Virus record (IMG/VR): IMGVR_UViG_3300045910_000051 | Span: 1-29,262 of that record | Origin: a virus | DNA: 29,262 nucleotides | Reading direction: 5' to 3' (one strand) | Shown here: in pieces, positions 24,892-29,262 of the stretch | Numbering within the stretch: the first letter of the stretch is position 1 | How the letters are laid out: every line of letters starts with the position of its first letter | Notes under the pieces: generated by a model | The model's database searches: none | What the model was told of the DNA's origin: nothing | The model's input: only the letters and a program-made list of their open reading frames with translations | Program-made: the position numbers and the translations under genes

Positions 24892-25380
24892 TCACCGATG
24901 TGGCGACAAATTCGGGATAAAATTTACCCTGTTCTGGGAAAATTTCCGTATCCAGTCAGGGTTTCGCTGTTTGTATTTCTGCCAAACCTTATATGCCGCA
25001 GCGTACGTGTATTCGTTCTCGTCGATATTGAAGAAGGCAAGAAAGTCTTTCGTGCTTTGGTTTGGGTTGATACCTTCGTCACTTTTAGCATAGATCCAGA
25101 GGATCATATGTTCCTTAAACATTTCCTCCAGAAGTGAATTAATGTACACCAGGCGCTTTATTCTGGGGCCTCTTTTTTCGAAGCGCTTGCTTAACGTTAC
25201 CTCTATTGTATCCAGGTACTGATCGCTGACGTTCACATATTCTATCTTGTCGACCATCGAGCTCATCAGATTACGACCTAGACTCGTATTCATATCCAGC
25301 CGAAACGGCTCACGAGCGTCGTACATTTTCAGCAGAAACTTCTTCAGGTGTGTTTTTGTAGGAATCTTGATTGTATGCAT
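24892..25380 (-). CDS. Hypothetical protein, possibly DNA-binding
   Basis: A helical 162-aa protein with a basic N-terminus. The C-terminal section T-K-D-F-L-A-F-F-N-I, then Y-T-Y-A-A-A-Y-K-V-W-Q-K-Y-K, looks like a helix-turn-helix-like unit seen in phage proteins I cannot name. It lies directly upstream of the hairpin and motif copy 4, at the boundary of the structural genes. That is a natural place for a late regulator, but this is inference from location only. It is not reverse-transcriptase-like and does not look like the DGR accessory protein Avd. Confidence 0.45.
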   Translation of the reverse strand: MHTIKIPTKTHLKKFLLKMYDAREPFRLDMNTSLGRNLMSSMVDKIEYVNVSDQYLDTIEVTLSKRFEKRGPRIKRLVYINSLLEEMFKEHMILWIYAKSDEGINPNQSTKDFLAFFNIDENEYTYAAAYKVWQKYKQRNPDWIRKFSQNRVNFIPNLSPHR

Positions 25381-25399
25381 AGTCTAAAAAATGTGGGGT

Positions 25400-25606
25400 T
25401 TATTTCCATTGGAATCCTTTGAAGTTCAAAAGATGTTCGTTGGCGGAGTCACTGAGTGCCTTCGGGACGAGCAAATTGCCTTCCGTGTTACGCTTGTGAA
25501 GCAGAACACCGTATTGATTTGATTTTCCGAGCTGCGCTTTTCTGTCAGCTTCCTGAAGGTTTTGCAAGCTCGTTATTTGCTGATATATGTTTCCAATTCG
25601 TTTCAT
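25400..25606 (-). pseudogene. DGR reverse transcriptase remnant (N-terminal stub)
   Basis: This 68-codon ORF starts M-K-R-I-G-N-I-Y-Q-Q-I-T and continues with Q-N-L-Q-E-A-D-R-K and L-G-K-S-N-Q-Y-G-V. From memory this matches the extreme N-terminus of DGR reverse transcriptases. Bordetella phage BPP-1 RT shares the pattern N-[IL]-x2-Q-I-T-x3-N-L-x2-A-x-R-K-x3-G-K. Homology seems to stop at N-L-L near residue 46 (about nt 25469), followed by 22 unrelated residues and a stop. A full RT is roughly 300-400 aa with a Y-x-D-D core; none of that follows, and another gene starts 20 nt later. It sits 113 nt after the template repeat, the usual RT position. An internal deletion is the simplest reading. 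Confidence 0.75.
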
Positions 25607-25719
25607 TCGATCCTTTGCTTTTCGTAAGTCGTCTTCACCGTGCGGTTACCAACGCCTTAGATTTTTAATTCGTTATTTTTTGCCGAGAGGCATGGCCTGC
25701 AATGATTTATATTTTATTC

Positions 25720-25795
25720 GCATAGGTGAGAGCTGACATTCGAATTCGAATTCCAGTTATCGTAGTCGTTGAACTGAAAGCCGGAAGAACCACGC
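25720..25795 (-). repeat. DGR template repeat (TR), 76 bp
   Basis: This 76-bp segment lies between the 130-aa target gene and the RT stub. On the minus strand it starts GCGTGGTTCTTCC, ends in TATGC, and contains 17 adenines, many in AAC/AAT codons (it would translate with N at five sites). Compared with the copies in the two target genes, the first 20 bases are identical. VR1 differs at 13 sites and VR2 at 15; all but one of these differences fall on template adenines. That is the hallmark of adenine-directed mutagenic retrohoming. It begins 26 nt after the stop of the 130-aa gene. It also lies within a 29-codon ORF (25714-25803) whose translation I do not trust. Confidence 0.9.
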
Positions 25796-25821
25796 TCAAT
25801 CATTGCACAGCCGGTTACTTT

Positions 25822-26214
25822 TCACAAGAAATATTCGTTGTATAGTTTATTGAAATTCGTGACAACGTACTCAGCCACGTCCCTTGAAATAAAGCAAAGG
25901 CGAGAGCCGACATACGAACCCGAATCCCAGTAACCGAAGCCGTGGAACCGAAAGCCGGAAGAACCACGCTTCTCTTTATATAACCACGCTTCGTACTTGT
26001 ATTGATTTGGATTGTCAAAATCAGGAATCCATTCTTCACCTCCATTTGCCAGCCGGTTGGCAGCACGGACAATAATGACGAGCTTTGCGTGTGCGATCAT
26101 TGAGGCTTGATCCTTCTTTAGAAAATTTGAGAAGTTAGGAATAACCGTTTTTGGATCCAGGCCCTCAACCTTGCAAGCGCCTTCGAATGTTTTGAGTTGA
26201 TTGAGTGATTTCAT
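25822..26214 (-). CDS. DGR variable protein 1 (130 aa)
   Basis: A small target protein of a diversity-generating retroelement. An N-terminal helical part (about 1-60) is followed by W-I-P-D-F-D-N-P-N-Q-Y-K-Y and a C-terminal domain with R-G-S-S-G-F-R-F and V-G-S-R-L-C-F. Residues 83-107 are encoded by VR1. Sites matching mutable template codons are 89, 91-95, 97, 99 and 101, alternating with fixed Phe, Trp and Ser as in a scaffold that presents variable side chains. I recall this G-F-x-F ... V-G-S-R-L-C-F family from Bacteroidota phages. It begins 5 nt after its paralogue's stop. There is no signal peptide or fibre domain, so what it binds is unknown. Confidence 0.85.
   Translation of the reverse strand: MKSLNQLKTFEGACKVEGLDPKTVIPNFSNFLKKDQASMIAHAKLVIIVRAANRLANGGEEWIPDFDNPNQYKYEAWLYKEKRGSSGFRFHGFGYWDSGSYVGSRLCFISRDVAEYVVTNFNKLYNEYFL
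25894..25969 (-). repeat. DGR variable repeat 1 (VR1)
   Basis: This 76-bp copy of the template lies in the 130-aa gene. It differs at 13 positions (repeat positions 21, 26, 30, 33, 36, 38, 44, 50, 51, 56, 62, 69, 73); every one is an A in the template, changed to G, C or T. None of the 59 non-A positions differs. Homology ends at TGC, where the target continues T-T-T and the template G-A-A. Confidence 0.92.
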
Positions 26215-26219
26215 AGCCT

Positions 26220-26669
26220 TTAGTCGATTACCATGAAATCTTTATACACCGATTCGAATTGCTTGCCTGCATATTCCGCAAGCTCCCTTGTTTTGAAGCA
26301 AAAGCGAGAGCCGACATCCGAAACCGAAGACCAGTAAACGTAGCCGACGAACCGAAAGCCGGAAGAACCACGCATTTCAAACCATGGAAAATATTTGTTC
26401 TCGTTTGAACTAGCCCAGTCGGGAGTCCATCCCTGGTTGAGTGACTTCACCAGGAATTTCAACAGCCTGTACGCTTTCTCATCCTTGGGCAGATCGACGC
26501 ACGAGAAATCAAATTCCTCCTGTGTTATATTATTGTCTGCGAGAACGTCGGCGACTGTCTTGATCCTGTCAATAGGATCCTTCACTTCTTTGAACTTGAG
26601 CTGGCCGGACTGCTTGTTAAAGCTTTCGACCTCGTACCCTTTCGGGATTTCAATCATAAGCGTTTTCAT
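26220..26669 (-). CDS. DGR variable protein 2 (149 aa)
   Basis: Paralogue of the 130-aa protein. The N-terminal part (about 1-75) contains an acidic helical stretch with I-T-Q-E-E-F-D-F. The C-terminal domain runs from W-T-P-D-W through P-W-F-E-M-R-G-S-S-G-F to V-G-S-R-F-C-F, with a closing E-L-A-E-Y-A-G-K-Q-F segment. VR2 encodes residues 100-124; sites matching mutable template codons are 106, 108-112, 114, 116 and 118. Relative to VR1 they encode a different loop (V-G-Y-V-Y-W-S-S-V-S-D against H-G-F-G-Y-W-D-S-G-S-Y). It lies beside the replication gene rather than among tail genes. Its job may be intracellular or on the host surface; no export signal is seen. Confidence 0.85.
   Translation of the reverse strand: MKTLMIEIPKGYEVESFNKQSGQLKFKEVKDPIDRIKTVADVLADNNITQEEFDFSCVDLPKDEKAYRLLKFLVKSLNQGWTPDWASSNENKYFPWFEMRGSSGFRFVGYVYWSSVSDVGSRFCFKTRELAEYAGKQFESVYKDFMVID
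26298..26373 (-). repeat. DGR variable repeat 2 (VR2)
   Basis: The second 76-bp copy lies in the 149-aa gene. Fourteen differences from the template fall on template adenines (repeat positions 21, 26, 27, 30, 36, 38, 44, 45, 50, 51, 56, 62, 69, 73). The one exception is C to T at position 71, near the 3' boundary where DGR target and template often carry fixed differences. Confidence 0.92.
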
Positions 26670-27041: not shown

Positions 27042-27281
27042 GGGATTATAAGTAAAGTTTTGTGAAAAAATGCGCTGCGAAAAAACTCGTGTAACGCGTA
27101 ACGTAACAAACATTTGTAACAGTTTACCTGAGTAAAGTAACTTCTGTAACATCGGTAACACCTTGCCGTGACTAGAATCATCGTTTTTACTATCATTTTC
27201 TTAATTGTTACAATTGTTACAGATGTTACTGATTTTCGAAGTCGATAATATTTTAAAGTCCTTTTTACGATCGCTCGCCAA
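27042..27281. promoter_or_regulatory. 240-bp intergenic region with phased GTTAC array
   Basis: This is the longest gap with no supported gene in the window. It holds ten GTTAC pentamers, seven written GTAAC on the plus strand (27091-27159) and three GTTAC (27207-27229). Within two clusters the units recur exactly every 9 bp (27137, 27146, 27155; and 27207, 27216, 27225), and AATTGTTAC is repeated twice without a gap (27203-27220). The two clusters are oppositely oriented. This resembles an iteron or operator array for a DNA-binding protein; beside a primase-helicase gene, a replication origin is possible. Confidence 0.55.
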
Positions 27282-29262
27282 TTAGAACGGTAAATCATCA
27301 CCATTGCCATTTCCGTTTTGTGTAGTTTCCGTCACAACCGTTACCAGTTCCGCCGTCGCCGTCGTCCTGATCGGTTGCTTCCACTGTTCAACCTCAGCTG
27401 GTTTAATCCATTCTTCTGCCACAAACTTGTAAGGCCGTTGCAGTACCGACTGATACATGATCTTTGGCGGAAGGCTAGAAGCTTCCTCCGGAACATCATA
27501 TCCAATGGGAATTGAAAAGCGTTGTGGAACATCTGGGGTCATTCCTTTCCGATCAACCAGGTAGTTCTTCAATTCAATTCCATCAATCTTGTACTTGCTA
27601 GTCTTAGGATCATTAAATACCTCAGTCAGATATTTCATGCTATATCTTAGCACTGGCAGGCGGTAGAGCATAAACTGTTCACGGATCCAATCCTCAAACA
27701 CCCGATCAATCCTGTTCTTAGTCGTTTCAACAATCACCTTAAACTGCTCGGTGATAAACCACTCCGACTTAAACCAGAGCCGGTCTGATCGTGGATGGAA
27801 AATGTTTCTATTGTAAATGAAATGGATAAAAGCTTCTGCCTCGGCCTTCAGCTTTAGCTCGAGATCCGGATCCTTTTTTTCTGGTGGAATCACCGGGACC
27901 CTAACAACAAACCAACGACTCTCACCATCTTCAATCTTCATCACGCGATCGGCATCGTTGCTGCAAATAATTACCTTACCATAGTAGTTGATGCGCCGAA
28001 CATTCATCCCCTTGTTCTCCAGGAAGGCGCTGTCGGCTGTGACGAGCTGTTTCAGTCTTTCCTTCTCCGCCTTCTTATCAACTTCCAAAAACCCTTCATC
28101 AATAGCGATAATGAACTTCGTTATGTAGTGGCCGTTGAACTTCATCTTGAACTGTTCGTTTCCCAGGATACACATGTTGGTACCAAACAACATTTGTAGC
28201 CATTTCAAGAATGTTGACTTTCCGGTATTGTTCTCTGGACTTACCAGGATGGGAACAGGAAGCATAATTTTAGGATGTTTGAAAAGCAACGTGAGATAAT
28301 CAAGAGCTACGGTAAACTGATCTCCAATGATACTATCCTCACTTTCGAATCGTCCTTGATCGTCCAACTGAACCTGGCCATTCCCCTGAAAGATGTGTTT
28401 GAGAAACCCGATAGTGCTGGCAATAGATCCTTCCTGCGGTCGCCATTTTAGCGGCTCGTATAGGTTGTAGCACCCTTTGATTATCCGTTGATAACCACCG
28501 TTCCAGTTTGGTTCAACACAGAAGTCATCATACTTCATGATCTGCTCGAGGAAGTCAGGATACTTTTTATAGTCGCGAACAATCTCACTTATCTTCCAAC
28601 TGACGATCTCTTGCTCATCCTCTCCAAACTTGTTTTGTTTGGTTATCACTTTCACCCAGTCAGGTCCGATGCGCATAAACTTGTCAGCATCTTCGTGCCG
28701 GACAAAAACGACTTCCTTCTTTTCATTGTCATAGATGTAGCGCCGGCGCTTGAACTTGAATTCTTGAGCTCCGATGAAGTCTTTGTAGGTTTTATAGAAC
28801 TCTTGCTCGTCGCTTAGTCCAAGGTATCGCCAGAGCTTACCCTGGACATCCTTGTTGGAGTCATTGATCTGGAAACCGCTGAAGTATTTCCGTGAAAAAT
28901 TGAGAGAGCACAGATCCTCCTGGATTTCCACTACACGCTCAGGATATTTGCATAGCAGGTCATCAATTCCCTTTGCTTCGTTGAGATACTTAGAATTGAT
29001 GTGCATGTAATAGACATACTTCAGATTAATATTGTCATCATCCAGGAGCAGCTGCAGGCTTTCGCGATATGCCTTGATCGATCCATAGAAGCTTGACGGT
29101 CGTTTGAAAAGATCTTTATCCTGCGCCCACTTCACAGTGAGTAAATCTGCGTCGAACAACAGAATGATCTTTTCGACTTTGCACGTGATGATCAGCTCCT
29201 GGATATCGTCGTGCAGCGTGCCTTTGAAATCACCGTTGTAGAATCCAAAGATCCCTGGCAGG
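27282..29262 (-). CDS. Primase-helicase: TOPRIM-like motif and SF3-type helicase (5'-partial)
   Basis: The reading frame is open to the window edge, so the N-terminus is missing; about 659 codons are visible. Near nt 29150-29170 it encodes I-L-L-F-D-A-D-L-L-T, a TOPRIM-like acidic motif. The C-terminal half is an SF3-type helicase. Walker A is S-P-E-N-N-T-G-K-S-T-F (about nt 28210-28245), Walker B is F-I-I-A-I-D-E-G (about 28095-28120), and the sensor strand is V-I-I-C-S-N-D (about 27955-27980). Family knowledge: such fusions prime and unwind phage DNA at replication forks (DUF5906-like in Bacteroidota phages). The C-terminus is Thr/Gly-rich and ends D-D-L-P-F, a tail resembling SSB-type interaction peptides. 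Confidence 0.85.
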   Translation of the reverse strand, partial: LPGIFGFYNGDFKGTLHDDIQELIITCKVEKIILLFDADLLTVKWAQDKDLFKRPSSFYGSIKAYRESLQLLLDDDNINLKYVYYMHINSKYLNEAKGIDDLLCKYPERVVEIQEDLCSLNFSRKYFSGFQINDSNKDVQGKLWRYLGLSDEQEFYKTYKDFIGAQEFKFKRRRYIYDNEKKEVVFVRHEDADKFMRIGPDWVKVITKQNKFGEDEQEIVSWKISEIVRDYKKYPDFLEQIMKYDDFCVEPNWNGGYQRIIKGCYNLYEPLKWRPQEGSIASTIGFLKHIFQGNGQVQLDDQGRFESEDSIIGDQFTVALDYLTLLFKHPKIMLPVPILVSPENNTGKSTFLKWLQMLFGTNMCILGNEQFKMKFNGHYITKFIIAIDEGFLEVDKKAEKERLKQLVTADSAFLENKGMNVRRINYYGKVIICSNDADRVMKIEDGESRWFVVRVPVIPPEKKDPDLELKLKAEAEAFIHFIYNRNIFHPRSDRLWFKSEWFITEQFKVIVETTKNRIDRVFEDWIREQFMLYRLPVLRYSMKYLTEVFNDPKTSKYKIDGIELKNYLVDRKGMTPDVPQRFSIPIGYDVPEEASSLPPKIMYQSVLQRPYKFVAEEWIKPAEVEQWKQPIRTTATAELVTVVTETTQNGNGNGDDLPF

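Follow-up and report, generated by a model that had tools for sequence, protein, structure and literature searches.

A Bacteroidota-phage diversity-generating retroelement cassette whose reverse transcriptase gene has probably been deleted recently

Results

Genes and features of the locus

Throughout this section the window refers to the whole stretch of DNA that was analysed, a linear contig of 29,262 nt. The features of the diversity-generating retroelement (DGR) cassette are all read on the minus strand and comprise two target genes with one variable repeat (VR) each, a template repeat (TR), a spacer RNA and the remainder of a reverse transcriptase (RT) gene:

26220..26669, minus strand: variable protein 2 (VP2), 149 aa, DGR target; phrog_11581, function not assigned, no named domain
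26298..26374, minus strand: VR2 (the VR2 of the sequence-only reading), inside the VP2 ORF; IMH in the last ~18 nt, about 26298-26315
25822..26214, minus strand: variable protein 1 (VP1), 130 aa, second DGR target and tandem paralogue of VP2
25894..25970, minus strand: VR1, inside the VP1 ORF; IMH at about 25894-25911
25720..25796, minus strand: TR, between VP1 and the RT stub; IMH* end at about 25720-25737
25611..25697, minus strand: TR-RT spacer RNA, RT-17-like; full-length match to Rfam RF03020 (RT-17), 35.7 bits, E 1.5e-5
25681..25692, minus strand: spacer hairpin 1 (UGCC/GGCA), covarying in relatives
25626..25658, minus strand: spacer hairpin 2 (AAGGCG/CGACUU, one G.A), covarying in relatives
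25466..25606, minus strand: RT stub, codons 1-47 of a DGR RT, 77% aa identity to the RT of the relative L002; catalytic part missing
25394..25465, minus strand: junction sequence of about 72 nt, origin unplaced; lengthens the stub ORF by about 20 aa, followed by a stop
24892..25380, minus strand: 162-aa ORF where synteny with the RT-bearing L002 resumes (74% identity)

VP1 and VP2 are located between a primase-like gene and the 162-aa gene and neither has a tail annotation. For the ORFs tested around the TR, Pfam gave no match except for the primase-like domain of ORF 27282-29261. Beside the primase-like gene, GTAAC/GTTAC motifs in both direct and inverted orientation form a cluster (27080-27230, arms 27136-27160 and 27206-27230); these are possibly replication-origin iterons.

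The AlphaFold model of VP2 has a pLDDT of 88.8 overall and of about 60 in the block that contains part of the VR. Foldseek found no significant match for the model in the PDB, VIA-align returned only two chains with Z values of 2-2.2 and the matches in BFVD were uncharacterised phage proteins, some of them crAss-like. According to Roux et al. 2021 (PMC8144416), annotated VRs are linked with the C-type lectin fold. The VP2 model has no PDB match that would point to this fold, and the present family may represent a variant of it. In the phage collection searched there was no named phage with this target, and the best RT match was the crAss-like cr55_1 with 55% identity.

Differences between the template repeat and the variable repeats

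TR, VR1 and VR2 are 77-nt copies without gaps, and 18 of the 77 TR bases are A. We compared the TR to each VR and detected the following differences: VR1 differs at 13/77 positions, all 13 of them at a template A (hypergeometric p = 4.7e-11), and VR2 differs at 16/77 positions, 15 of them at a template A (p = 3.5e-12). When each template A was replaced by N, the resulting pattern was found at exactly three sites in the window with 0 mismatches, and at none in 100 shuffles. Both VRs lie within open target genes (25822-26214 and 26220-26669). The sequence-only reading had used a 76-nt frame and had reported 17 template As, 13 differences for VR1, all at A, and 15 for VR2, 14 of them at A. Our realignment returned the same 13 for VR1, and the other figures are correct for the shorter frame. 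Across both alignments the single difference at a base other than A is a C to T change in VR2, which falls into the IMH zone.

The IMH/IMH* pair, placed by comparison with relatives, occupies the last ~18 nt of the repeats (TR: GTCAGCTCTCACCTATGC; VR1: GTCGGCTCTCGCCTTTGC), with the IMH at the VR end and the altered IMH* at the TR end as far as the sequence can tell. In the window this zone holds three A differences per VR in addition to the C to T change of VR2. Across the RT-bearing cassettes of the family 511 of 512 TR A cells in the IMH zone differ from the VR, and differences in this zone are therefore fixed and not the result of mutagenesis. Thus only about 10-11 A-type differences per VR count as evidence of mutagenesis, and not the 13-15 previously taken as its signature. 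The A-only pattern is still far from chance after the IMH differences are removed: the core, which excludes the IMH, has changes in 21 of 28 A cells and in none of its 76 non-A cells. The corresponding baseline of the family is 1894/2797 changed A cells versus 24/6355 non-A cells.

VP1 and VP2 are paralogues and hence some similarity between the repeats is to be expected, as it would be if duplicated gene segments had simply diverged in the ordinary way without any retroelement. The core counts refute this explanation, as had already been argued from the sequence. Moreover, the TR lies outside the target genes yet matches both VRs, and in 89 relatives a TR of this kind is accompanied by an RT. 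We consider ordinary divergence practically impossible. Judged by these repeats, the TR/VR set of the window is a product of adenine-mutagenic retrohoming.

We also noted that some template As in CAG context outside the IMH zone are G in every VR of the respective locus (window, L001, L002, L004 and L012). For L012 at least one such always-G template adenine is at a synonymous site (TCA/TCG). These always-G outcomes suggest that the outcomes at CAG adenines are biased or constrained.

The reverse transcriptase stub and the deletion junction

The next ORF after the TR (25400-25606, 68 aa) consists of 47 RT codons followed by unrelated sequence. Its PHROGs match to reverse transcriptase covers profile positions 96-140 only, and in an alignment with 11 intact RTs the window has nothing past codon 47, YxDD included. 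A full RT in the relatives has about 315-320 aa. Neither RVT_1 nor any other RT gave a match in the whole 29,262-base record, and the window thus has no intact DGR-type RT with YxDD beside its TR. The record being a linear contig, the phage or its host may nevertheless carry a second RT elsewhere. As only RT codons 1-47 are left, we classed the window as an RT-less DGR derivative and not as an intact DGR. The earlier attribution of the repeats to adenine-mutagenic retrohoming by a DGR holds for their origin, and a complete DGR is found in relatives that share this layout. It does not hold for a working element, since the RT is a 47-codon stub.

L002 (IMGVR_UViG_3300001372_000009), the closest relative, has a complete DGR with the order VP2, VP1, TR, an RT of 319 aa and genes of 98, 113 and 163 aa. 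The window shares with it the order VP2-VP1-TR, the RT N-terminus (77%), the IMH/IMH*, the primase (75%) and the downstream 162-aa gene (74%), whereas the full RT and the 98-aa and 113-aa genes are found in L002 only. The two sequences align at about 71% through the TR, the spacer and RT codon 47, where the alignment breaks, and it resumes at ~25393 before the 162-aa gene. What is missing from the window are RT codons 48 to the end and the next two small genes. A DUF1643 gene between a small upstream ORF and VP2 in L002 (2977-3459) is also absent from the window. We considered the 162-aa gene as a candidate DGR accessory protein and rejected it: it has no Pfam family match and also occurs in L016, a relative without a DGR at that place.

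The junction is about 250 nt away from the repeats and not in a repeat. For the 72-nt junction sequence no source was found in the fetched relative loci, and the peptide it encodes is absent from the viral contigs searched. This bears on whether the break could be an assembly artefact or belong to a defective minority genome within a real phage population with an intact RT. We saw a single record of this genotype, and DGR loci hold near-repeats which are able to confuse assemblers. However, with the junction outside the repeats, synteny resuming cleanly and the ~72 nt insert matching nothing in the relatives, and with other RT-less loci in existence, one of them on a 117-kb contig, we regard such an artefact as very unlikely.

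An RNA element in the TR-RT spacer

The spacer from the TR to the RT start is 113 nt long in the window. The score of its RT-17 match (35.7 bits) is below the curated gathering cut-off of RF03020 (40.4 bits) and we therefore term the element RT-17-like; the relatives L003 (41.4 bits) and L100 (40.5 bits) pass the cut-off. Both hairpins are kept in the window. Across 52 different spacers 91.8% of the hairpin cells are paired, and hairpin 2 often has one G.A. Both sides had changed in 63 hairpin cells compared to 15.3 in shuffles, of which not one in 500 reached this count, and to no more than 24 when the partners were slid, although the pairing was picked by eye on the same 52-spacer alignment and the control counts hence favour it. 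In this DGR family the spacer between TR and RT coincides with an RT-17-like RNA, which gives RF03020 a concrete context.

RT-less cassettes among the relatives

Relatives were fetched with VP2 as the query. Profile scans returned 65 bacterial loci, most of them in Bacteroidota genomes, together with 80 loci on viral contigs, and a TR was located by a mechanical search in 101 loci. We limited the RT census to cassettes whose sequence extends for 1.3 kb or more past the TR, 96 in total. A full RT is present in 89 of the 96 and none in six (L029, L036, L049, L100, L118 and L147); the window is the only one with a stub. RT-less and stub cassettes together thus make up 7/96, about 7% of the family cassettes. 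The RT and the 98-aa gene occur together in all 11 cassettes that were found first. The 98-aa gene (L002:5470-5766; phrog_19665, function unassigned) follows the RT, has homologues in 10 other DGR loci and none in the window; it is possibly a DGR accessory protein. In the RT-less L049 (4607-5033) the TR is directly followed by a homologue of this gene, and the TR/VR match has decayed with six non-A mismatches per VR.

A recurring RT-less state could also mean that these DGRs are non-autonomous. In this case the window phage would keep the TR, the spacer RNA and the VRs, the RT would be supplied in trans by a co-resident prophage or a co-infecting phage and the VRs would still be diversified. 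Several observations fit this scenario besides the recurrence itself (six cassettes plus the window among 96). In most RT-less cassettes the break falls near where the spacer RNA ends or the RT begins, with the TR and the RNA intact, and the spacer of the RT-less L100 even reaches the RT-17 cut-off. Except for L049, the RT-less loci show a TR/VR match almost as clean as that of loci with an RT. In addition, the genome holding the RT-less L029 (Aquimarina algiphila) encodes a full RT on another contig, beside a TR and leader 99.5% identical over 201 nt. However, the Aquimarina algiphila assembly has single-N joints at this locus, and we therefore put L029 aside as weak proof of supply in trans. 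The locus (L029:3480-5330) contains four VRs, with the single-N joints inside target genes, and is perhaps two collapsed cassettes.

Whole-record searches detected no RT in L100 (117 kb), L147 (35 kb) and L118 (10.9 kb), nor did a search of the bacterial assemblies holding L036 and L049; the two longest phage records and both assemblies thus speak against a supply in trans. On the VP tree the RT-less rows are scattered tips that form no clade, as would be expected of short-lived losses. The seven RT-less or stub rows require seven label changes, at least four of which are forced by well-supported branches, in a tree that has few columns and a bootstrap that has not settled. Overall we consider a supply in trans unlikely.

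Timing of the RT loss

The TR of the window and that of L002 differ at some non-A bases (GTTCTTCC vs GTTCGTCC; AATTCG vs AATACG), and the bases specific to the window are copied in both of its VRs. The element must therefore have worked after the split from L002. Between the RT stub and L001 we counted 7, 5 and 25 differences at codon positions 1, 2 and 3, similar to the 7, 8 and 25 of the intact pair L001-L002, a test of recency that has little power as it rests on a 47-codon stub. Taken together, the copied TR bases, the intact TR/VR match (0/76 non-A changes in the core) and the evolution of the stub suggest that the RT was lost recently.

Discussion

We conclude, with a probability of roughly 75%, that the window holds a Bacteroidota-phage DGR cassette from which the RT gene was recently deleted. 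As long as the RT was present, it would have copied TR RNA into cDNA with errors at A, and this cDNA would have taken the place of the VRs of the two small proteins. RT codons 48 to the end and the two following small genes would then have been lost in a rearrangement. After this deletion the TR and the VRs would still be readable while the VRs would no longer be updated. The VP1 and VP2 ORFs are still open and presumably retain the last variants.

The DGR of Bordetella phage BPP-1 is the prototype of these elements, and its TR, VR, IMH/IMH* polarity and A-specific changes are all found in the window as well. Unlike the window, which has no RT and small unannotated targets, BPP-1 has an active RT together with Avd, and its target is a tail-fibre protein. 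The RT-17 family of Rfam (RF03020) is matched over its full length, but below the cut-off, and the copy in the window precedes an RT stub only. A parallel in terms of RT loss is found in the epsilon crAss-like phages: several of their genomes have a fragmented RT gene or a deletion of it, and the authors read this as retrohoming not being in use by these phages (PMC11054128). As in the window, the RT of these Epsilonunovirus DGRs is fragmented or absent and the VR target is retained. Their published target, a receptor-binding protein, has a C-type lectin fold (PMC11054128), whereas the window has two small proteins of 130-150 aa for which no such match was found. Phage DGRs with a fragmented RT were thus already known, and what is new here are the different DGR targets, a count and the retained RNA element. 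A literature search on non-autonomous DGRs gave no usable match.

DGR surveys that work outward from the RT gene will miss RT-less cassettes. If these cassettes are frozen, diversification has repeatedly been shut down permanently, each time following a recent bout. Were they instead served in trans, DGRs would have parasites or partners, and hypermutation would be shared between phages in one cell.
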